This document shows positions 37,400 through 62,339 of a DNA stretch of 64,000 nt, in pieces. Position 1 is the stretch's first letter; every line of letters starts with the position of its first letter. The stretch comes from Methanomassiliicoccaceae archaeon DOK (GTDB lineage: Archaea; Thermoplasmatota; Thermoplasmata; Methanomassiliicoccales; Methanomethylophilaceae). The notes beneath the pieces are model-generated. The model was not told where the DNA came from and did no database searches. It saw only the letters and a list, made by a program, of their open reading frames with translations. Both the position numbers and the translations under genes were made by a program. The stretch spans positions 1,550,001 through 1,614,000 of the forward strand of contig CP047880.1 in the NCBI GenBank assembly GCA_009911715.1, given 5' to 3'.

Positions 37400-37646
37400 A
37401 CCGTCACCTGCAATATGGCTCTTCGGGATTGAGGATGTGCGGCCCCATCCCGAAGCGCCGTTCGAAACCCCCTCGGACTTACGAAGAGCCCAGATCATGA
37501 GTTGAAGTTATGATGTGATGTTGTACAACGCCCACCGTTCGACACCGGGACCCTCCTCCGTCCGTATTCTTGATGAGTATGGGCCTGCGCCCTATACGGT
37601 CGTCTAAGTTAATTTTAAATAAGCCATCTGTATCCCCTGATTCAAT
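37400..37646. other. Gene-free interval before tRNA-Tyr
   Basis: No supported gene is seen. The stretch ends with TTAATTTTAAATAAG (about 37609-37623), a good TATA box about 27 bases before the tRNA. Confidence 0.5.
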
Positions 37647-37755
37647 CCCCACTTAGCTCAGACTGGCCAGAGCGGCTGACTGTAGAGTGTTTTCGGCGAA
37701 AACCGATACAGCCGCTGAAATCAGCAGGTCCCCTGTTCAAATCAGGGAGTGGGGA
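37647..37755 (+). tRNA. tRNA-Tyr (GTA) with a 34-nt intron
   Basis: The acceptor stem CCCCACT (37647-37653) pairs with AGTGGGG (37748-37754), discriminator A at 37755, and CCA follows in the DNA. The anticodon stem is GCTGA / TCAGC around C-T-GTA-G-A, with the anticodon at 37682-37684. An intron of 34 bases (37686-37719) interrupts after position 37, the canonical archaeal site. C1-G72 is the identity pair of archaeal tyrosine tRNA. The T-arm and acceptor 3' side form the attachment site of the integrated elements. Confidence 0.95.
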
Positions 37756-37758
37756 CCA
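37738..37758 (+). repeat. Attachment site copy 1 (attL of element E1, in tRNA-Tyr)
   Basis: A 21-bp core covering the tRNA T-stem 3' side, acceptor 3' strand and CCA. It recurs exactly at 44279-44299 and 61718-61738. The base to its left differs (TT in the tRNA, CC in the other two), which marks the core boundary. Confidence 0.93.
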
Positions 37759-39001
37759 TCCTTTTCCAGCATCCCAGAAATTTGGGAATTTAACCACCCC
37801 GCCGACCCTCTTAACGAGTTATGCTGCGGATACCCCTCCCCTGTATCAGGAGCCTCCACAAGAACCTAAGAAGGGCTCCACGCACCTCAGTGGGGACTGG
37901 TACGGGGAGTGGCGCTACGACCGCAGGGAACTCCGCGCCGACCTCGTAAACGGCAAGGCGAGCCTCGACGACGGCAGGCATCAGGGAAGGTTCCTCGATT
38001 GGATGCGCGACGACTCCGTGGTGGTGTTCGAGGACAAGGCCTCCAAGGAGCGCGTGTGCTCCCCGATCTGCCGCCGCGGGAACCGCCAGTACGCCATGAA
38101 GAAGGCCAGGCAGCGCGACGCGTTCCTCGAGGGCATCGGCAGGAAGGTCCTCGACCACCCGCACAGCAGCAACCCGAATTACAGGGACACGCAAGCCCTC
38201 CTCATCACGGTCACGTTCGACAAGAAGCGCTTCACCAAGGAGCAGTCCTGGGCCCATCTGTCATCCACTGAGATCGAGGGCTCAGACATCAAGACCGGTG
38301 TGCTCAACGACCTGACATCCAACCTCAGGGACATCTTCGGCCCGCTCTGCAAGATCACCGTCAAGGAAGCCCAGGAGGACGGCTACCCGGCACCGCACAT
38401 GATCGTGTTCCTGGACCGCCCGGTCACGGTCAAGCTGCATAGGGGGAGGTACGGGCAGTCGTGGCGCATCGTCGACCCACGCATCCTCAGGCGCATCGGG
38501 AAGGACCCCGCGCTCCGCAGGCTCTCCCGGAAGAACCATGTCGACGCCATCAGGCTCAACCCGATCTGGAAGTACGGATTCATCGACATCCAGGGCATCG
38601 TGAAGGGAGACCTCTTCAGGAACCGCAGGGATGCCGTCAGCTACGCCTACAAGTACCTGACCAAGTCCCTCGTCGACGACCACGGGAGGGAGCTCGAGCG
38701 GCTCGACACGATCTCCGGATGCCGCACCAAGGGCATGAGAATCGCTCTATGGGGCCATCTAGCCAACAAGTCATTCGGCCTCAGGGACATCACATACGGT
38801 AGGAAGGTCAAGGAGTTCCTCGAGATGCTTCCAGAGGAATCCGAGGACGAGGAGGACCCTCAACCAACAAGATGGGAGTTCAAGAGGACCATGCCCAGAT
38901 TCGTCTATGAGGACATAGTCATCAAGAAGGCCAAGAAGATGCTCAGGAAGTTCAAGATCGTCGAGGACCCTCCTCTGGTAACATCATACACAACATCTTG
39001 A
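37742..39001 (+). CDS. Rep-like protein of E1, start codon lost by integration
   Basis: The frame is open from the tRNA gene (stop at 37616) to 39001, but it holds no ATG, GTG or TTG before 38003. Residues coded upstream of 38003 (SGDWYGEWRYDR...) are conserved in the E2 copy, so they belong to the protein. The likely true start lies across the att site, as in E2, and is restored only in the circular form; otherwise a 332-residue truncated protein from 38003 is possible. Motifs LLITVTFD, YPAPHMIVFLD and YAYKYLTKSL resemble, in order, motif 1, a degenerate HUH motif and the tyrosine motif of rolling-circle Rep proteins; this assignment is tentative. Confidence 0.65.
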   Translation, partial: SGSGDHPFPASQKFGNLTTPPTLLTSYAADTPPLYQEPPQEPKKGSTHLSGDWYGEWRYDRRELRADLVNGKASLDDGRHQGRFLDWMRDDSVVVFEDKASKERVCSPICRRGNRQYAMKKARQRDAFLEGIGRKVLDHPHSSNPNYRDTQALLITVTFDKKRFTKEQSWAHLSSTEIEGSDIKTGVLNDLTSNLRDIFGPLCKITVKEAQEDGYPAPHMIVFLDRPVTVKLHRGRYGQSWRIVDPRILRRIGKDPALRRLSRKNHVDAIRLNPIWKYGFIDIQGIVKGDLFRNRRDAVSYAYKYLTKSLVDDHGRELERLDTISGCRTKGMRIALWGHLANKSFGLRDITYGRKVKEFLEMLPEESEDEEDPQPTRWEFKRTMPRFVYEDIVIKKAKKMLRKFKIVEDPPLVTSYTTS

Positions 39002-39121
39002 TCTCAATTAGGGGACGTCATCAATCATTCTATACAGCCGTCAAGCTGCGTTCCGTCCCCATCCCCCCAGGGCCCTCTGGCCCATCATATCATCCAGCCA
39101 CCGCCATCCCACCACGTCCTG

Positions 39122-39319
39122 TCCCAATCATCACGCGGGTGGGCATGCGCCCCCGTCTGCCGCACGGCAGGGGGCGCTGCACACACGCGTAAGGGAGCCG
39201 CGAAGCGGCGACCGTGCCCGAGCGGAGCGATGGCACAGGGGCCGTAGCGTCAGCGGAGGCCCCCAGGACGGAGCGCAGCGACGTCCCGACTTGATGGAGA
39301 GAACGCGAGTTAAAAGTCC
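39122..39319 (+). repeat. Multi-hairpin non-coding block, copy 1
   Basis: A G+C-rich block after rep with five consecutive inverted repeats: a long nested stem (outer ACGCG / CGCGT, inner GCGCCCCC / GGGGGCGC, core GCCG / CGGC), GCCGC / GCGGC, TGCC / GGCA, GGGGCC-type and GGACG / CGTCC. Copies 2 and 3 lie at 45657 and 62155. It ends with GAGTTAAAAG, a TATA-like run 23-30 bases before the next gene. It may be a replication origin or a structured RNA. Confidence 0.75.
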
Positions 39320-39337
39320 TCAAGTACATATCCCATC

Positions 39338-39856
39338 ATGGCCTACTCTCCCATCCAATTACAAGCTCTGCAACTAATCTCCAAATTCTATACTCCTGGC
39401 GAGCCCCGTACAATCATTCCTTATTCCGAGGCATACTCACTCTTCCAACATCGTGCTGAAGACGTTTTCAAATCTCTTGAGGTCGAGGGCCTCATCCTCT
39501 ACATCTCAGGTTCCTTTGATTCGTATCAATTACAGGTATACACCTCAACCTTCGATCAAATTAAGCAAGATTCCGAATCGACCGCACCCTCTTCAATGAC
39601 GACAACCATCAATCTGAACATTACAATCAACCAGTACATCTCTCAAATATCACAAAATGCCCAACAGGATCAAGATGTGATTGAGCTTCTTCAGGAAATT
39701 AGGGATTATGTGGGTGATTCAATCGCTCAAAAGAAGAAACTCGATGATTCGTGGATCTCTAAAATTCACAATGCAATCAGCACTTATCCTCTTTTAGCTG
39801 ATGTTATCTCGAAAGTAACGATTGATGTTCCCCTGAAATACTTCCTCGGAATATGA
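39338..39856 (+). CDS. Hypothetical protein of E1 (possible winged-helix N-terminus)
   Basis: A 172-residue protein that I do not recognise. The first ~70 residues (QLQALQLISKFYTPGEPRT ... EDVFKSLEVEGLILYI) have the pattern of a small winged-helix domain; the rest has a Thr/Asn-rich strand region and an amphipathic helix. Codon use is more A+T-rich than the chromosome. It follows the hairpin block and precedes vsr, so it may be part of the same cargo transcript. No homologue is present in E2. Confidence 0.6.
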   Translation: MAYSPIQLQALQLISKFYTPGEPRTIIPYSEAYSLFQHRAEDVFKSLEVEGLILYISGSFDSYQLQVYTSTFDQIKQDSESTAPSSMTTTINLNITINQYISQISQNAQQDQDVIELLQEIRDYVGDSIAQKKKLDDSWISKIHNAISTYPLLADVISKVTIDVPLKYFLGI

Positions 39857-39895
39857 AACCGGCAAGTATAAACCGGTCCAACGCCTCCATAGTCT

Positions 39896-40306
39896 GTGCA
39901 GAAAACTCCCGAGCAGATACATTACAATATGTCCCGCATCCGTAGCAAGGACACCAAGATTGAAGTGGAACTCAGAAAAGAGCTCTGGTCTCGTGGACTC
40001 CGCTATCGTAAGAATGTCAAAAATGTCCCAGGCAAACCTGACATTGCATTCATTGGGAAGAAGGTAGCTGTATTTTGTGACAGTGAGTTCTGGCACGGTT
40101 ATGACTGGGAACATCGCAAGAACGATATCAAGACCCGCAGAGAGTTTTGGATTCCCAAGATAGAGAGGAACATACAAAGGGATTTAGAAGTGAACCAGCT
40201 ACTGGAAGAGCAAGGTTGGATCGTCCTGAGATTCTGGGGAAAAGAAATTCAGAAGGATGTCTCAGGCTGCGCGGATAGGATAGAAAAGGTGGTGAGAGAA
40301 AGATGA
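39896..40306 (+). CDS. vsr: Very short patch repair endonuclease
   Basis: A 136-residue Vsr protein starting at a GTG: TPEQIHYNMSRIRSKDTKIE (the family N-terminus), LRYRKNVKNVPGKPDIAF with the metal-binding Asp, VFCDSEFWHG and WIPKIERNIQRD. It nicks next to T:G mismatches made by deamination of 5-methylcytosine and so protects the methylated site. It overlaps the methylase by four bases. A TATA-like GTATAAACC lies about 22-30 bases upstream. Confidence 0.93.
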   Translation: MQKTPEQIHYNMSRIRSKDTKIEVELRKELWSRGLRYRKNVKNVPGKPDIAFIGKKVAVFCDSEFWHGYDWEHRKNDIKTRREFWIPKIERNIQRDLEVNQLLEEQGWIVLRFWGKEIQKDVSGCADRIEKVVRER

Positions 40307-41367
40307 CGTCTAAATACAGGTCCATAGACCTCTTCGCGGGAATAGGCGGAATCCGCATGGGATTCGACAGAGCCTTCGGTGACGAGATCAAGACGGTCTT
40401 CGCCAGCGAATGGGATCCCTACGCGCAGCAGACCTACAAGGCCAACTTCGATACTCCCGAAGAAATCAACGGAGATATTACTAAGATCGATGAGAAGGAT
40501 GTGCCTGATTTCGATATCTGTCTCGCTGGATTCCCCTGCCAGGCATTCTCCATCGCTGGAAGGAAACAGGGATTCAAGGACGACTACAAAGGCATGTCCC
40601 GCGGAACTCTGTTTTTCGACGTTGTCAGAATCTGTGACCTCCACAGACCTAAGGTAATCTTCTGCGAGAACGTCAAGGGCCTCACAATCCATGATAAAGG
40701 CAGGACATTTGATGTGATCATCAACACTCTCAAAGACATGGGCTACACCCCCCTGTATAAAGTCCTCAACAGCAAGGACTACGGAGTCCCACAGAATAGG
40801 GAGCGCATCTACATCGTCGCATTCAGGAACGACATCGACTGCTCGTCATTCCAGTTCCCCCAGCCCACCAACACGAAGACGAAGATTGCTGATATCTTGG
40901 AAAAGGAACCCGTCTCTGTGAAGTACTACCTCAGCGACGTGTATCTGGAGACCCTAAGAAAACACAGGGCCAGACACGAGGCTGCGGGCCACGGATTCGG
41001 CTATGAAATCAAGGATCTCAACGGCGTATCTTCCGCTCTCGTCTGCGGAGGGATGGGTAGGGAGAGGAATCTGATCGTAGACGACCGCCTCACCGATTTC
41101 ACCCCCGTGACCAACATCAAGGGAGAGGTCAACCGCGAAGGAGTCCGTAAAATGACCCCTCGCGAATGGGCGAGACTCCAGGGATTCCCCGACGACTTTA
41201 AGCTTGTTCTTTCCGATACCCACCTCTACAAACAGTTCGGCAATTCGGTCACCGTCCCGGTCATCGAGGCCATTGCGAAGGAAGTTAGGAGGACTTTGGA
41301 TGGGAATAACAAAGGGGAATGCGGGGGAATGGTCGGAGCCGTATGTTCTTCTCAAACTGTTGGCTGA
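40303..41367 (+). CDS. DNA cytosine-5 methyltransferase (HpaII-like, CCGG)
   Basis: A 354-residue C5 methylase: motif I DLFAGIGGIRMGF, motif IV GFPCQAFSIAG with the catalytic Cys, motif VI ENVKG, motif VIII QNRERIYIV, motif IX REWARLQGFP and motif X KQFGNSVTVPVIEAIA. The target-recognition region (RHEAAGHGFGYEI, GGMGRERNLIVDDRLTDFTP) is very like that of M.HpaII, so CCGG is the likely target. The 3' end overlaps the nuclease gene by 68 bases in another frame. Confidence 0.92.
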   Translation: MTSKYRSIDLFAGIGGIRMGFDRAFGDEIKTVFASEWDPYAQQTYKANFDTPEEINGDITKIDEKDVPDFDICLAGFPCQAFSIAGRKQGFKDDYKGMSRGTLFFDVVRICDLHRPKVIFCENVKGLTIHDKGRTFDVIINTLKDMGYTPLYKVLNSKDYGVPQNRERIYIVAFRNDIDCSSFQFPQPTNTKTKIADILEKEPVSVKYYLSDVYLETLRKHRARHEAAGHGFGYEIKDLNGVSSALVCGGMGRERNLIVDDRLTDFTPVTNIKGEVNREGVRKMTPREWARLQGFPDDFKLVLSDTHLYKQFGNSVTVPVIEAIAKEVRRTLDGNNKGECGGMVGAVCSSQTVG

Positions 41368-42610
41368 CGGAAAGATCTACAAGTCAGACAAAGATTTGAA
41401 CATAAACGAAAACGTCTGGCATGAGATTCGCTCTATCATCTTCAAAAAGAACAAATCTGACATGGACGGATCTCTGAAATACATAATTGATCCAGATCAA
41501 AGAACCGTCGAAGTTCAGGTCGACGGAGAACCTGTTCTTAGAATCCAGAGAGAAGACTGCAGATCATATGCCGAGGGACTGAGAGAGGCCATTTTAACGT
41601 CTTCCCATGGAAGGGGTACGGTGGACATTCCAGCGACCTACGAAGAATATCTGAAGAATTCTCTCAAACGCGAAGTCCTCAAAGCCTCTGTAAAGGATAC
41701 TCCCGACATCTGGCTGAATCTGGAGGATACGCGCAATACTACGGACAAACCTCTCGGATTCAGCATCAAGTCCATCCTGAGTAGTCCACCTACCATTTTC
41801 AATCCCAGTGACGGCACAAATATCATCTACGAACTCACAGGAAACGTAAACGAACAGACAATCTCCGAACTTCAGAGCATTACGAAACACTACAAAGGCG
41901 TTGAGAAAAGAGGTAAGAAGAAGGTTGAAGTCGAATACGACCACCCCAACCGTGAGGAGAGGGTGTTGTACATAAGAAACCATGGGATAGGTCTCAAATT
42001 GGTCGGTACAGGAACTGTCCATCACGATAATCATGGAAACCATACTCTTGAGCCGAGTCAATTTGAAAGAAATCTCCTTATGATCGGCTCAGACGCTCTT
42101 CCAATTCTCTCTTTCATGACCATTGAAGCCTACTTCAACGGAATCGTAAACCTCAGTCACCTTGTGGACGTGCTCGATAAGGAAGACCCCCTGAATTACA
42201 AACCCAGTCCCGAGCAGCCTTTCTACAGGAGAAGAGTCGAGGACATGCTTGTAGCAATGACCCTCTCGATGACCGGTGTCGATGTGTGGGACGGTTCGGA
42301 AGGAACCAACGGAGGAATGATCTTCGTAAAGACGGACGGAGATGTTGTGTGCTACCACTTGTTCGACAGGAACGATTTCCGCGAATTCCTTCTTCAGAAT
42401 ATGCGCTTTGACTGGCCCAGCGCCAGAAGATACTTCAGCACAAGCATAACTAAAGATGGAGACAGATACCTTATGAATCTGAACGTACAGATTCGCATGG
42501 TACCGAGACAGAAGGCAATGTCGAATCTTCTCATTGAAGGATATTACGACTTCGAAAAAGGCATTGTATACGAAGAACATGAAATAATAAAAATGTTTGA
42601 ATCGTTGTGA
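41300..42610 (+). CDS. HpaII-like type II restriction endonuclease
   Basis: A 436-residue protein. The N-terminus KGNAGEWSEPYVLLKLLADG is the hallmark of the HpaII restriction-endonuclease family, which cuts CCGG. The body (FSIKSILSSPPTIFN ... NIIYELTG) and the conserved WDGSEGTNGGMIFVKTDGD ... CYHLFDRNDFREFLL part are shared with the E2 relic. AGGAGG seven bases before the ATG at 41300 supports the start inside the methylase gene. It is probably translated after the methylase, which delays nuclease synthesis. Confidence 0.88.
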   Translation: MGITKGNAGEWSEPYVLLKLLADGKIYKSDKDLNINENVWHEIRSIIFKKNKSDMDGSLKYIIDPDQRTVEVQVDGEPVLRIQREDCRSYAEGLREAILTSSHGRGTVDIPATYEEYLKNSLKREVLKASVKDTPDIWLNLEDTRNTTDKPLGFSIKSILSSPPTIFNPSDGTNIIYELTGNVNEQTISELQSITKHYKGVEKRGKKKVEVEYDHPNREERVLYIRNHGIGLKLVGTGTVHHDNHGNHTLEPSQFERNLLMIGSDALPILSFMTIEAYFNGIVNLSHLVDVLDKEDPLNYKPSPEQPFYRRRVEDMLVAMTLSMTGVDVWDGSEGTNGGMIFVKTDGDVVCYHLFDRNDFREFLLQNMRFDWPSARRYFSTSITKDGDRYLMNLNVQIRMVPRQKAMSNLLIEGYYDFEKGIVYEEHEIIKMFESL

Positions 42611-42638
42611 TTTGAGGCAATGAAAACCTCACTCACAA
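42605..42638 (+). terminator. Hairpin at the convergent ends of the nuclease and AbrB-like genes
   Basis: Arms TTGTGA/TCACAA and GAGG/CCTC enclose an A-rich loop, followed by CCCTTTTT on the plus strand. It overlaps the nuclease stop codon. Confidence 0.5.
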
Positions 42639-42980
42639 CCCTTTTTCCTTCTTCTTCTCCTCGCGCTTCCTCCTCTCGAGGGCGTACTCCTCCCTCGCGA
42701 TGCGGAGGCGCTCCTCTGGATCCAGATTGAGGTCGGCGTCCTCGTCCAGATGCTCCTCCTCGTACTCTATGAGCCTTTGGCGGATGTCCTGACTCTCGAG
42801 GTCGAACCCCTGATAGGTTTTCGTCCTCTTCCTCAGGACCACGTTGCCGTCGATGATGTGCCATTCGACGACGTCCTCCCCCTTCTCAAGCTCCAGGAGC
42901 TCGGCGATCTTGATGCTGCATGTGATGCGACCGTAGTTGTCGTACTTGGACTCCCCTACCTTGACCATCGTTACCATCAT
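42633..42980 (-). CDS. AbrB/MazE-like regulator of E1
   Basis: A 115-residue protein. The N-terminal VKVGESKYDNYGRITCSIKIAELLELEKGEDVVEWHI has the swapped-hairpin AbrB/SpoVT pattern; the C-terminal half is a long charged helix ending in a Lys/Glu-rich tail. A close homologue of equal length lies at 60073 in E2. The adjacent ATG pair (42978-42980 and 42975-42977) lies next to TTGGCAA-type sites, so autoregulation and control of the divergent small ORF/integrase are likely. An ATG at 42968 is the alternative start. Confidence 0.75.
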   Translation of the reverse strand: MMVTMVKVGESKYDNYGRITCSIKIAELLELEKGEDVVEWHIIDGNVVLRKRTKTYQGFDLESQDIRQRLIEYEEEHLDEDADLNLDPEERLRIAREEYALERRKREEKKKEKGL

Positions 42981-43027
42981 TGGCAACGATACCAAATCGT
43001 TTAATATTTGGTTGGCACTGATGGCAA
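42980..43027. promoter_or_regulatory. TTGGCAA operator cluster, E1
   Basis: TTGGCAACGATACCAA (42980-42995) is an imperfect dyad; TTGGCAC (43012-43018) and TGGCAA (43022-43027) follow. A TATA-like TTTAATAT lies between. The layout matches the E2 cluster at 60420. Confidence 0.7.
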
Positions 43028-43029
43028 TC

Positions 43030-43281
43030 ATGAACCAAATTGCCGTCAACGCCAGTGAAGGTGCGACCCGCCTTCACGACATCAGTCCCCCTGTGAGGGA
43101 CCACAGCTGTGAGGACTTCAGGAGGGTGGACAGGGCAGCCCACATCAGCGCCCTGGGCATCTTCCTCAGGAACTTCCCCCTCGGTGTCTTCGACGACGAG
43201 GAGAGGAGATGGTTCCTGGACATCCAGTCAAGGGTATGCCACATGGAGTCAAACGCCTTCGATGATCTCGGGATGGAGTGA
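43030..43281 (+). CDS. Small conserved element protein (before integrase), E1
   Basis: An 83-residue protein of unknown function, conserved with the one at 60470: both share MNQIAV at the start and AAxISALGIFLRNFPL..FDD.ER.WFL at the centre. The ATG at 43030 is homologous to the one in E2. Its stop overlaps the GTG of an upstream integrase start by zero bases, so it is probably co-transcribed with the integrase; an excisionase-like or regulatory role is possible but not shown. Confidence 0.65.
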   Translation: MNQIAVNASEGATRLHDISPPVRDHSCEDFRRVDRAAHISALGIFLRNFPLGVFDDEERRWFLDIQSRVCHMESNAFDDLGME

Positions 43282-43290
43282 GTGGCAATC

Positions 43291-44244
43291 ATGGCAAGAG
43301 GTAATTACACTGGAATCTCGTGCATCAACGAGCATCTCGCGACGACATATAAGCACAGCAAGCCCGAGACCGTGGCCAAGTACCGCGGCGTCCTTTACCA
43401 GATCAACGGGGACGTGAAGGACAACGGCTACTCGGACAATCCCCGTCAATACGACGAGGAGACCATCGAGTTCCTTCTCGGACTCTGGAAGGAGCGCGAC
43501 CTCGCTGTCTCCACCAAGGACTGGTACCTCCACATCCTCAACAGGTACCTCAGATGCTTCGACAACAACGTGATCGAGGAGATGGGCATCGACTTCGGCC
43601 AGGACATCCGCCCCAACGTCAACTGGCTGTCCGACGAGCAGGCAGAACACCTCATGAGAATGGAGAAGACCCCCCTCGAGGAGGTCGTCATCCACCTCGA
43701 GCTCTGCCTCGGCCTAAGGGTTGCTGAGGTCTGCAGGCTGCGCCTCGTGGACATCCACTTCGATGACGACCCCCGCAAGTGCTACGTCTCCGTCCGCGGC
43801 AAGGGCAAGGGGGACGGCAAGTGGAGGAGCGTCCCGTTCCACCCGGACTCCAGGGCGGTTTTCGAGAGGTGGATCGTCAGGCGCAACGACATTATCGAGA
43901 AGATCCACGCATACGACCCGACCTGGGAGGTCCCCGAGCAGCTCCTGATCTGGGGCCACTACGAGAACCGCCCGACCGGAGGACACTACACCGAGAGGAG
44001 CCACAGCCTGGACCGCGCGGTGATCCACAAGGTCCGCGACCGTGCCGGATTCGACTTCTCCAACCACACCCTCAGGAGGACGTTCGGCCGCACGCTCTAT
44101 CGTGCCGGCATCCCGATCGAGACAATCTCCAAGCTCTACGGCCATGACGACACACAGACCACCATCCGCTACCTCGGTATCGACCTCGACGACATGGGCT
44201 CCGCCCTCGCCAGGATGTACGAGTATCAGTACTCCAAGAGATGA
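43291..44244 (+). CDS. int: Tyrosine recombinase (integrase) of E1
   Basis: A 317-residue integrase: N-terminal SAM-like domain, then the catalytic domain with LCLGLRVAEVCRL (Arg), HTLRRTFGRTLYRAG (H-x2-R), LYGHDD (His) and TTIRYLG (Tyr nucleophile). It acts on the tRNA-Tyr att site 34 bases downstream. Its stop codon (TGA, 44242-44244) overlaps the rep start of the next element as ATGA. An in-frame GTG at 43282 is an alternative start. Confidence 0.93.
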   Translation: MARGNYTGISCINEHLATTYKHSKPETVAKYRGVLYQINGDVKDNGYSDNPRQYDEETIEFLLGLWKERDLAVSTKDWYLHILNRYLRCFDNNVIEEMGIDFGQDIRPNVNWLSDEQAEHLMRMEKTPLEEVVIHLELCLGLRVAEVCRLRLVDIHFDDDPRKCYVSVRGKGKGDGKWRSVPFHPDSRAVFERWIVRRNDIIEKIHAYDPTWEVPEQLLIWGHYENRPTGGHYTERSHSLDRAVIHKVRDRAGFDFSNHTLRRTFGRTLYRAGIPIETISKLYGHDDTQTTIRYLGIDLDDMGSALARMYEYQYSKR

Positions 44245-45542
44245 TTTGCATGGTCCCCACAAACCCTGTCGGAGAACCCAAATCAGGGAGTGGGGACCAT
44301 CCCTTCCCACATTCCGAATTTTTTGGGAACTTAACCGATTCGTCAGACCGCTTAACCGTTTATGCTTCCGATACCCCCGTCCCGTATCAATCCTCTCCGA
44401 ATCCCACCAGATCCCGCAGGCCGAGCTTCTCGGGGGACTGGTTCGGCGAGTGGCGCTACGACCGCAAGGGGCTTCGCTCCGACCTCGCCAACGGAAAGAT
44501 CCATTTGAAGAACCGCAGGCATCAGCAGAGGTTCCTGGATTGGATGCGCGACGAGCAGATGATTGTCTTCCAGGACAAGAAGACGGGCGAGAAGGTCTAC
44601 AGCCCCGTCTGTCGCCGCGGAAACCGCCAGTACGCAATGAAGAAGGCGAGGCAACGCGACCTGTTCCTGGAGGCGTTCAGAACCAAGGAATTGGATCGCC
44701 AGATCGGCAACAATCCCAACATCCGTGAGACCTGCGCATTGCTAATCACCGTGACCTTCGACAAGAAGAAGTACACGATGGAGGAGGCATGGGGTATGCT
44801 CTCGTCCACGGAGATCGCCAGCTCTGACCTCAAGACAGGGGTGCTGAACAACCTGACAGCCAATCTCCGGGACATTTTCGGGCCTCTATGCAAGATCACC
44901 GTCAAGGAGGCCCAGGAGGACGGCTATCCCGCGCCGCATCTGATCGTCCTCCTTGACAATCCGACGACCGTCAAGCTCCATCGCGGCAAGGGTGGCCAGT
45001 CGTGGCGCATCTTCGATCCCCACACACTCAGACGCATCGGCAAGGACCCGGCGCTCCGCAGACTTTCCAGAATCCGCCATATAGATGCAATCTCCATGAA
45101 TCCTATCTGGAAGTACGGATTCATAGATGTTCAGGGTGTTGTGAAGGGATGCCGCTTCAAGAACCGCAAGGACGCCGTCAGTTATGCGTACAAATATCTC
45201 ACAAAGTCCCTGACAGACGACCACTGCAGGGAGCTCGAGGACCTCGATTCGATCTCCGAATGCAGGACCAAGAGCCTCCGCATATCCCTCTGGGGACACC
45301 TCTGCAACAAGTCCTATGGTCTGAGGGACATCACTTACGGAAGAAAGGTCAAGGAGTTCTTGAGCATGCTGCCTGCCGAGAACATGGACGGAGAAAATAC
45401 AATGGAATCTAGATGGACATTCATGAGAACTATCCCCTCGTTCGTCTATGAGAAGATCGTCATGTGGAATGCCAGGAAGATGTTGCGTCCATTCAGATCC
45501 AGACCAGAGACCTCCGACGCCAATCCATCACCAGCTTTCTGA
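44241..45542 (+). CDS. Rep-like protein of E2, reading through the att site
   Basis: A 433-residue protein, homologous over its length to the E1 copy. It begins at an ATG overlapping the E1 integrase stop (ATGA), so residues 1-14 are coded to the left of att and residues 14-20 by the att core itself. A second ATG lies at 44250. Motifs ALLITVTFDKK, YPAPHLIVLLDN and VSYAYKYLTKSL suggest a Rep of rolling-circle type with a degenerate HUH motif. Only the tandem position gives it a start codon here. Confidence 0.75.
   Translation: MICMVPTNPVGEPKSGSGDHPFPHSEFFGNLTDSSDRLTVYASDTPVPYQSSPNPTRSRRPSFSGDWFGEWRYDRKGLRSDLANGKIHLKNRRHQQRFLDWMRDEQMIVFQDKKTGEKVYSPVCRRGNRQYAMKKARQRDLFLEAFRTKELDRQIGNNPNIRETCALLITVTFDKKKYTMEEAWGMLSSTEIASSDLKTGVLNNLTANLRDIFGPLCKITVKEAQEDGYPAPHLIVLLDNPTTVKLHRGKGGQSWRIFDPHTLRRIGKDPALRRLSRIRHIDAISMNPIWKYGFIDVQGVVKGCRFKNRKDAVSYAYKYLTKSLTDDHCRELEDLDSISECRTKSLRISLWGHLCNKSYGLRDITYGRKVKEFLSMLPAENMDGENTMESRWTFMRTIPSFVYEKIVMWNARKMLRPFRSRPETSDANPSPAF
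44279..44299 (+). repeat. Attachment site copy 2 (E1/E2 junction)
   Basis: Identical 21-bp core to copies 1 and 3. Its left flank continues the integrase end; its right flank begins the E2 rep coding region (att codes K-S-G-S-G-D-H in the rep frame). Confidence 0.93.
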
Positions 45543-45656: not shown

Positions 45657-45843
45657 TCCCAAGCGGGCGGGCAAGCGCCCCCACAGCCGCACGGCAGGGG
45701 GCGCGCCCGCTCGCCAGGGAGCCGCGGAGCGGCGACCATGCCCGAGCGGAGCGAGGGCACAGGGGCCGGAGCGTCAGCGGAGGCCCCCAGGACGGAGCGC
45801 AGCGACGTCCCGACTTGATGGGGAGAACGTGAGTTAAAAGTCC
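45657..45843 (+). repeat. Multi-hairpin non-coding block, copy 2
   Basis: Homologous to copy 1. The outer arm here is GCGGGCGGGC pairing with GCCCGCTCGC (one G-T), different in sequence from copy 1 but still paired. Inner stems and the GGGGCC/GGCCCC and GGACG/CGTCC hairpins are kept. It ends in GAGTTAAAAG. Confidence 0.75.
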
Positions 45844-60730: not shown

Positions 60731-61684
60731 ATGGCAAAGGGCAACTACTCCGGAATCTCGTGCATCAACGAGCACATCGCCAACACCTACAGGAGATCGA
60801 AGGAGGAGACCTCCTCGAAGTACCGCGGAGTCCTCTACCAGATCAACGCCGATCTTCAGCAGAACGGATACTCCACCAACCCCCGCGAGTTCGACGAGGA
60901 GACGATAGAGTTCCTCCTGGGGCTCTGGAAGGAGCGCGACCTCGCGGTGTCCACCAAGAACTGGTACCTGCACATCCTGAGAAGGTACCTCTCATACTTC
61001 CAGAACGACGTTGTGGAGCAGATGGGCGTGGACTTCGGTCAGGATGTCCGCCCCAACGTCAATTGGCTCTCTGACGCGCAGGCCGAGCAGCTCATGGAGA
61101 TGGAGAAGACCCCTCTCGAGGAGGTCGTCATCCACTTGGAGCTCTGCCTCGGCCTCAGGATCGTGGAGGTCTGCAGGCTGCGCCTCTCGGACATCCACTT
61201 CGACGATGATCCCCGCAAGTGCTATGTCTCCGTCCGCGGGAAGGGCAAGGGCGACGGCAAGTGGAGGAGCATCCCGTTCCACCCGGACTCCAAGGAGGTC
61301 TTCGAGCGCTGGATTGCCAGGCGCAACGAGATTATCGCCAGGATGCACGAGTTCGACCCCTCATGGAAGGTCCCCGAGGAATTCCTGATCTGGTGCCACT
61401 ACGAGAACTCCCCCTCCGCCGGACGCTACACCGAGAGAGGCCACAGCCTCGACCGTGCGGTTATCCACAAGATCCGCGACCGCGCCGGGTTCGAGTTCTC
61501 CAACCACACTCTCAGGAGGACCTTCGGTCGTACCCTCTACCGCGCCGGCATCCCGATAGAGACAATCTCCAAGCTCTACGGTCACGACGATGTTAAGACG
61601 ACCATCCGCTACCTCGGAATCGACCTCGACGACATGGGCTCCGCCCTGGCGAGGATGTACGAGTACCAGTACTCCAGGAGATGA
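60731..61684 (+). CDS. int: Tyrosine recombinase (integrase) of E2
   Basis: A 317-residue integrase, very similar to that of E1 and equal in length. Catalytic segments LCLGLRIVEVCRL, HTLRRTFGRTLYRAG, LYGHDD and TTIRYLG are kept. It ends 33 bases before att copy 3. A GTG at 60722 is the alternative start. Confidence 0.93.
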   Translation: MAKGNYSGISCINEHIANTYRRSKEETSSKYRGVLYQINADLQQNGYSTNPREFDEETIEFLLGLWKERDLAVSTKNWYLHILRRYLSYFQNDVVEQMGVDFGQDVRPNVNWLSDAQAEQLMEMEKTPLEEVVIHLELCLGLRIVEVCRLRLSDIHFDDDPRKCYVSVRGKGKGDGKWRSIPFHPDSKEVFERWIARRNEIIARMHEFDPSWKVPEEFLIWCHYENSPSAGRYTERGHSLDRAVIHKIRDRAGFEFSNHTLRRTFGRTLYRAGIPIETISKLYGHDDVKTTIRYLGIDLDDMGSALARMYEYQYSRR

Positions 61685-61688
61685 TCTA

Positions 61689-61802
61689 GTGACCCTCTCA
61701 AACACGGTCCCCGAACCCAAATCAGGGAGTGGGGACCACTACCCCCTCCTTTCTTATACTTGGATTCTTCCAAAATTTAAACGTTATAGGCATTCCCATT
61801 GA
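61689..61802 (+). pseudogene. Rep N-terminal remnant of E3
   Basis: From a GTG at 61689 the frame codes VTLSNTVPEPKSGSGDHYP, matching the rep N-terminus through att, and stops at 61802. The rest of rep is absent before the hairpin block at 62155, so rep in this element was deleted or replaced. Confidence 0.55.
61718..61738 (+). repeat. Attachment site copy 3 (E2/E3 junction)
   Basis: Identical 21-bp core. Left flank CCGAACC is like that of copy 2 (GAGAACC); right flank differs, marking the start of E3. Confidence 0.93.
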
Positions 61803-62154: not shown

Positions 62155-62339
62155 TCCCAAGCGGGCGGGCGGGCGCCCCCACAGCCGCACGGCAGGGGGC
62201 GCGCCCGCACGCCGAGGGAGCCGCGGAGCGGCGACCGTGCCCGAGCGAAGCGAGGGCAGAGGGGCCGTAGCATCAGCGGAGGCCCCCAGGACGGAGCGCA
62301 GCGACGTCCAGACTTGATAGAGAATACATGAGTTAAAAC
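62155..62339 (+). repeat. Multi-hairpin non-coding block, copy 3
   Basis: Homologous to copies 1 and 2. The outer arm GCGGGCGGGC pairs with GCCCGCACGC except for one mismatch; inner stems and the downstream GCCGC/GCGGC, TGCCC/GGGCA, GGCCCC and GGACG/CGTCC hairpins are preserved. It ends with GAGTTAAAAC. Confidence 0.75.

Follow-up and report, generated by a model that had tools for sequence, protein, structure and literature searches.

The window analysed here, 64,000 nucleotides (nt) spanning positions 1,550,001-1,614,000 of the single-contig 1.89-Mb genome of Methanomassiliicoccaceae archaeon DOK (CP047880.1), carries two small integrative elements, E1 and E2, in tandem at a tRNA-Tyr gene. 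Their putative replication initiator gene, rep, adjoins the attachment site (att) in such a way that insertion into the chromosome separates its reading frame from the start codon. Judging from the sequence, it is probable that rep is read from a start on the integrase side across the attachment site of the free circle (attP), that insertion into tRNA-Tyr removes this start, and that excision or a tandem neighbour restores it. E1 and E2 would then be elements of the rolling-circle type, with the order integrase gene (int) - attP - rep in the free circle. Translation of Rep would begin on the integrase side, 34-39 nt from the att core, where the start codon abuts the end of int or falls within it; the ribosome would then read the core and a disordered tail before reaching the folded Rep domain. 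Insertion would replace the start-bearing arm with the 3' half of the tRNA gene, which is startless in that frame; with the arm lost, chromosomal rep would therefore not be translatable as a full protein, even if read-through from the tRNA gene transcribes it. Excision would re-form the int-rep pair, and a neighbour in tandem, if it has the same integrase end, would likewise supply a start, as E1 would do for E2.

The tandem pair and the rep frame

The att core, CAGGGAGTGGGGACCA, occurs exactly three times in the window (37743, 44284 and 61723), the first copy being the 3' end of tRNA-Tyr(gta); E1 (37,738-44,302, inserted in tRNA-Tyr) and E2 therefore form a tandem pair. The tRNA gene was not recovered by a default ARAGORN run and was recovered with introns allowed, and an Rfam search of the window at the gathering cut-off gave no match. 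Both elements are of the tyrosine recombinase type, possessing att repeats of a tRNA 3' end as well as a phage-integrase domain, and both integrases are whole (317 amino acids) and lie to the left of att. The gene content of E1 is rep, Vsr, C5-methylase, HpaII-type nuclease and int. The features which define the arrangement, all on the forward strand, are listed below.

37647-37758, forward: tRNA-Tyr(gta) gene with a 34-nt intron and encoded CCA, the integration target (ARAGORN with introns; Rfam RF00005, E 3.4e-10)
37738-37761, forward: attL, the tRNA 3' end plus TCC, CAAATCAGGGAGTGGGGACCATCC (repeated exactly at 44279-44302, and in a 21-nt version at 61718-61738)
37759-37888, forward: N-terminal tail of E1 rep, from att to the SGDW motif, open in the rep frame, without start codon or codon-position bias
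37889-39001, forward: conserved coding region of E1 rep, from SGDW to the stop, without in-frame ATG, GTG or TTG upstream when integrated
43291-44244, forward: E1 tyrosine integrase (Pfam PF00589, E 1e-18)
44250-44280, forward: start-bearing arm of attP, ATG 44250 with MVPTNPVGEP in the rep frame, and ATG 44241 as the alternative
44250-45542, forward: E2 rep, complete, with its start given by the E1 integrase end (AlphaFold2 model)
44279-44302, forward: att between the elements, being the right end of E1 and the left end of E2 (repeat)
60731-61684, forward: E2 tyrosine integrase, E2's own copy, 82% identical to the E1 integrase
61689-61691, forward: GTG in frame with rep when E2 itself is circular (MTLSNTVPEP-KSGSGDH), with Shine-Dalgarno (SD) sequence AGGAGATGATC
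61718-61738, forward: att at the right end of E2 (21-nt version of the repeat)

The rep frame of E1 is open over 37619-39001, and its first ATG, GTG or TTG is the ATG at 38003, which confirms what a sequence-only reading of this DNA had described. The same reading placed the start of E2 rep at the ATGA of 44241-44244. The overlap of this ATGA with the stop codon of the E1 integrase stands, as does the continuation of the frame from 44241 across the att core, read as KSGSGDH, into rep, where it ends at 45542; yet the ATG at 44250, next in the frame (MICM...), is the likelier start as far as position and predicted pairing can tell. Its distance to the core is 34 nt, which places it at the same spot as the GTG in E2's own attP arm (61689) and in a related element, G075, and its predicted SD pairing at the E1 end is the better of the two (-6.7 vs -3.4 kcal/mol); 44250 is preferred for these two reasons. 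As a conserved start, ATGA 44241 was demoted to an alternative, E2's own ATGA reading ATG-ATC-TAG, out of frame.

Circle junctions among related elements

Rep genes and att sites were gathered from 102 genomes of the family, and attP was rebuilt in silico for elements having both ends, the left arm being the integrase side and the right arm the rep side. Seven complete tRNA-Tyr elements were obtained from six genomes, one G057 element being joined across a contig break because 131 identical bases of contigs C37 and C5 overlap. An element without a right end (G021) was left out of the circle test, and widening the search from the family to the order brought no further complete testable tRNA-Tyr element. 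In all seven elements int occupies the right end and rep the left end on the same strand, so placed that the two genes are contiguous only in the circle. The start codon in the rebuilt circle, its distance from the core and the rep frame are as follows.

E1: ATG, -34 nt, frame 2
E2: GTG, -34 nt, frame 2
G075: GTG, -34 nt, frame 2
G056a: TTG, -35 nt, frame 1
G058: ATG, -35 nt, frame 1
G057B: ATG, -35 nt, frame 1
G069: ATG, -39 nt, frame 0

An upstream start followed by an open frame as far as the conserved GxW is found in 7/7 rep frames, compared to 0/14 of the other frames at the same junctions. Three frames are in use, and the offset of the start moves with the frame of rep (-34 in frame 2, -35 in frame 1 and -39 in frame 0), the two being always matched. 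By our own arithmetic the chance figure is 1/C(21,7) = 9e-6, or 1/495 when collapsed to 4 lineages, since kinship shrinks the sample to about four independent lineages (4/4 vs 0/8). The most telling case for the agreement of frames is G069, the integrase of which is closest to that of E1 (67%), while its rep is 89% identical to that of G056; it uses a frame unlike either, and yet its start still matches its rep.

The starts are closely packed with the integrase gene. In E1 (44250), E2, G075 and G069 the start lies 2-5 nt past the int stop; in G058 and G057B it overlaps the stop as ATGA, and in G056a it precedes the stop by 29 nt. Predicted SD pairing at the seven starts ranges from -6.7 to -12.4 kcal/mol against a background with a mean of -4.4 and a best 10% of -8.1, such that six of the seven are beyond or near the best 10%, while E1, the weakest (-6.7), is near the 25% mark (-6.3). 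These values were scored with the standard archaeal anti-SD sequence and not with one read from this genome, in which a pattern search for the 3' end of the 16S rRNA gave no match. The earlier suggestion that integrase and rep form a pair reading across attP is thus supported by the in-frame circle start (7/7) and the tight packing, although not in the form of a conserved start at ATGA 44241. From this organization we infer that int and rep would be carried on one coupled transcript in the circle.

The integrated state and the tail before SGDW

The 24 distinct tRNA-Tyr 3' halves contain no start codon in frames 0 and 1, and 17/24 are free of frame-2 starts within 55 nt. Of the seven complete elements, E2 and G057B alone have an upstream start when integrated; each lies behind another element's integrase end (2/2), as the model predicts. 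The claim that excision or a tandem copy restores the start thus held both for the circle junctions and for the integrated copies, and we infer that loss of the start would silence Rep in vivo. It is most improbable that E1 is merely a decayed element which lost its rep start by chance. One relative, G056b, and the solo rep of G021 do appear decayed, but the integrase and cargo genes of E1 are intact, its circle junction gives the start back, and its rep is under purifying selection (69-79% amino acid identity to E2, with a third-position excess); the occurrence of the same arrangement in seven elements already makes chance decay unlikely.

A different possibility is that Rep is also made in the integrated state, from ATG 38003 or from a non-canonical codon near SGDW, and that the tail serves as an untranslated leader or origin. 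This is unlikely, although codon-level constraint begins at SGDW instead of att, relatives at tRNA-Ser have their own SD sequence and ATG to the right of att, and some tRNA-Tyr relatives have a TTG, GTG or ATG inside the tail. Yet E1, E2 and G075 contain no ATG, GTG or TTG from att to past SGDW, and in 13/13 related tRNA-Tyr elements no stop interrupts the rep frame between att and the conserved GxW, compared to 3/26 of the other frames, so that the open frame in E1 and E2 is not due to chance; the agreement of the circle starts (7/7) likewise opposes this possibility. In the AlphaFold2 model of E2 Rep, residues 1-60 are disordered and the confident fold begins at SGDW. ATG 38003 corresponds to residue 99, and a start there would delete residues 61-98, and with them SGDW, two folded helices and the invariant Trp, and was rejected accordingly. 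The ATG at 37821, which lies outside the rep frame and is shared by E1, E2 and G075, was also weighed as the start of a frameshifted product, for which no slippery site was seen.

Several observations weigh against the loss of the start as the means of silencing. The sequence-only reading took the residues coded between 37619 and 38003 to be conserved. This is true from SGDW (37889) onward, where E1 and E2 rep are 71% identical, but the 43 codons from att to SGDW are 44% identical and bear no codon-position signature. Between E2 and G075 the differences in the tail are distributed 7/9/10 over the codon positions (13 nonsynonymous to 3 synonymous codons), and in the next 38 codons 1/2/12 (2 nonsynonymous to 13 synonymous). 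The tail evolves like non-coding DNA, and the case for its translation therefore rests on the open frames and the lack of other starts. In G056a, G057B and G058 an internal TTG, GTG or ATG precedes GxW, and in G069 the core itself contains a GTG; silencing may therefore be leaky or partial in these elements. In a further element, G056b, the frames of start and rep do not match; this element has a truncated integrase and two mismatches in its right att. The integrase of G069, otherwise intact, carries an in-frame TAG (HPLT*QVLQRW; L070), which could be either pyrrolysine read-through or a nonsense mutation; these archaea are known to use pyrrolysine. Free circles were found neither in viral contigs, searched with E2 Rep and a Rep profile, nor in plasmids, and no terminal overlap was present in the small rep-containing contigs checked.

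We read the tail as a segment that would be translated, yet unconstrained as protein, with DNA elements inside it, namely TTAACC blocks and a GATAC-N9-GTATC dyad. In E1 the tail (37759-37888) contains the conserved blocks TTTGGGAAnTTAACC and CTTAACnnnTTATGC together with GATAC-N9-GTATC. It probably carries an origin or a promoter.

Known switches, unsplit relatives and Rep identity

In SNJ2, a haloarchaeal betapleolipovirus, experiments have established that the replication operon is rebuilt only upon excision, with a transcript that begins within int and a new open reading frame (ORF) across attP (PMC13107129). The present elements resemble SNJ2 in being archaeal, in having a tyrosine integrase, in the circle order int - attP - replication genes and, as it would appear, in becoming functional only by excision. 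In SNJ2, however, the attP-spanning orf26 is a separate essential gene with RepSNJ2 further downstream, whereas in the present elements it is rep that extends across attP and is parted from its start. RepSNJ2 is also a Rep-Arvir protein of TBP-like fold, whereas the Rep described here looks HUH-like and is unrelated by the tests made, no match to the Rep-Arvir/DUF7845 family being found for it; and the SNJ2 switch has been demonstrated experimentally, while the present one is predicted from sequence.

A transcriptional switch of the SNJ2 kind might explain the same arrangement, if circularization placed rep under a promoter within or ahead of int and the att-crossing frame were a by-product of operon packing. 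On its own this is unlikely, slightly more so than the translation of integrated Rep, despite the SNJ2 precedent of a circle-specific operon beginning inside int with an ORF across attP (PMC13107129), and despite a second rep family (family B), in which a short ORF over att terminates next to a separate rep start or overlaps it. It leaves unexplained the missing starts to the right of att in E1, E2 and G075 and the agreement across three frames, and the integrated rep lies directly downstream of the tRNA gene and is presumably transcribed. Such a switch may well act jointly with the loss of the start codon.

Two further systems offer partial parallels. In mycobacteriophage BPs, attP lies within the repressor gene, and integration trims its 3' end and activates the product (PMC4557955); both cases have attP inside the frame of a regulatory gene and a protein altered by integration, but here the 5' start of a replication initiator is removed, which would inactivate it. 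Among the suicidal archaeal integrases (SSV/pTN3/pT26-2 type), integration into a tRNA gene splits int, which cannot then excise (PMC8371274). Insertion at a tRNA gene likewise splits an element gene across att in E1, yet int stays whole and rep is split, and excision therefore remains possible. The sequence-only reading had drawn this last contrast but overlooked SNJ2. The literature searched yielded no relevant earlier report of a rep gene divided by attP, and what is new here is the predicted split of the initiator gene itself, the SNJ2 principle being already known.

The silence of the initiators of integrated plasmids is usually ascribed to repressors. If start loss operates as proposed, recombination itself would silence the initiator by removing a start codon, without a regulator, and the SNJ2 principle would extend to the initiator gene itself and to methanogens of the rumen and gut. 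The same Rep is encoded by named relatives among Candidatus Methanomethylophilaceae, Methanomassiliicoccaceae and other Thermoplasmata, of which some were sampled from the rumen. Tandem copies should, under the model, be in a different state, and rep genes of this kind will be shortened or missed by gene callers when the element is integrated. We lean slightly towards the broader proposal that the initiator gene is an integration switch, whereby selection would hold the rep start on the integrase side and keep the frames matched through module swaps, each integration would stop Rep translation, and tandem arrays would re-enable the downstream Rep.

Among the relatives sampled, the split characterizes family-A reps at tRNA-Tyr and does not extend to every relative. 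An attP-spanning ORF which exists only in the circle is rep itself in family A and a short leader ORF in family B, the reps of which start to the right of att. In the family-B circles G057A and G054 this short ORF runs from the integrase end across att and stops 1 nt before the rep start or overlaps it, in a manner resembling orf26 of SNJ2; the junctions are L052 2044-2163 joined to L052 8947 and L054 4581 joined to L108 2461, with ends that read TGA-C-GTG or overlap. In elements at tRNA-Ser, the reps of which have their own SD and ATG, rep likewise starts wholly to the right of att, as it does in an att group situated on an inverted tRNA end. Such reps, the existence of which the sequence-only reading had considered as a counter-case, thus occur in the other rep family and att groups, but not in the complete family-A tRNA-Tyr set. 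A third rep of the E1/E2 family lies about 10 kb to the left of the window at tRNA-Ser (L040 5488-6759; genome 1,540,487-1,541,758), and begins to the right of att with an SD and ATG of its own; a second copy of its att was found neither in L040 nor in the window.

Rep is treated here as a probable HUH-type initiator. Weak matches to Pfam PF23343 (REP_ORF2-G2P) were obtained for 8/18 homologues (E 2e-4 to 3e-3), E1 and E2 being below the gathering score, and one homologue matches PF20199 (RepSA). The best PDB matches of the AlphaFold2 model are the HUH domains of geminivirus, adeno-associated virus and Helitron proteins, which are likewise weak (E 0.06-0.8). The homologues share an invariant YxxKYxxK, which fits a rolling-circle Rep, and an invariant PAPH, with one His instead of H-x-H.

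Two further features of E1 lie between rep and int.

39140-39330, forward: GC-rich non-coding block after E1 rep, candidate origin (repeats at 45669-45843, after E2 rep, and at 62167-62338)
39896-42610, forward: E1 cargo of Vsr endonuclease, C5-cytosine methylase and HpaII-type restriction enzyme (Pfam)

The GC-rich block is 91% identical between E1 and E2, which exceeds the identity of rep, and it is also present after G075 rep and, in a shorter form, after the tRNA-Ser reps; its recurrence after each rep makes it a candidate origin. Downstream of E1 rep, the block folds with an ordinary energy (z -0.7). The cargo forms a compact restriction-modification set. A small minus-strand gene without Pfam match (42633-43049) directly precedes E1 int, and its position suggests a regulator of int. 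The GC-rich copy at 62167 lies to the right of the right att of E2 and lacks a rep, which suggests the remnant of a third element.
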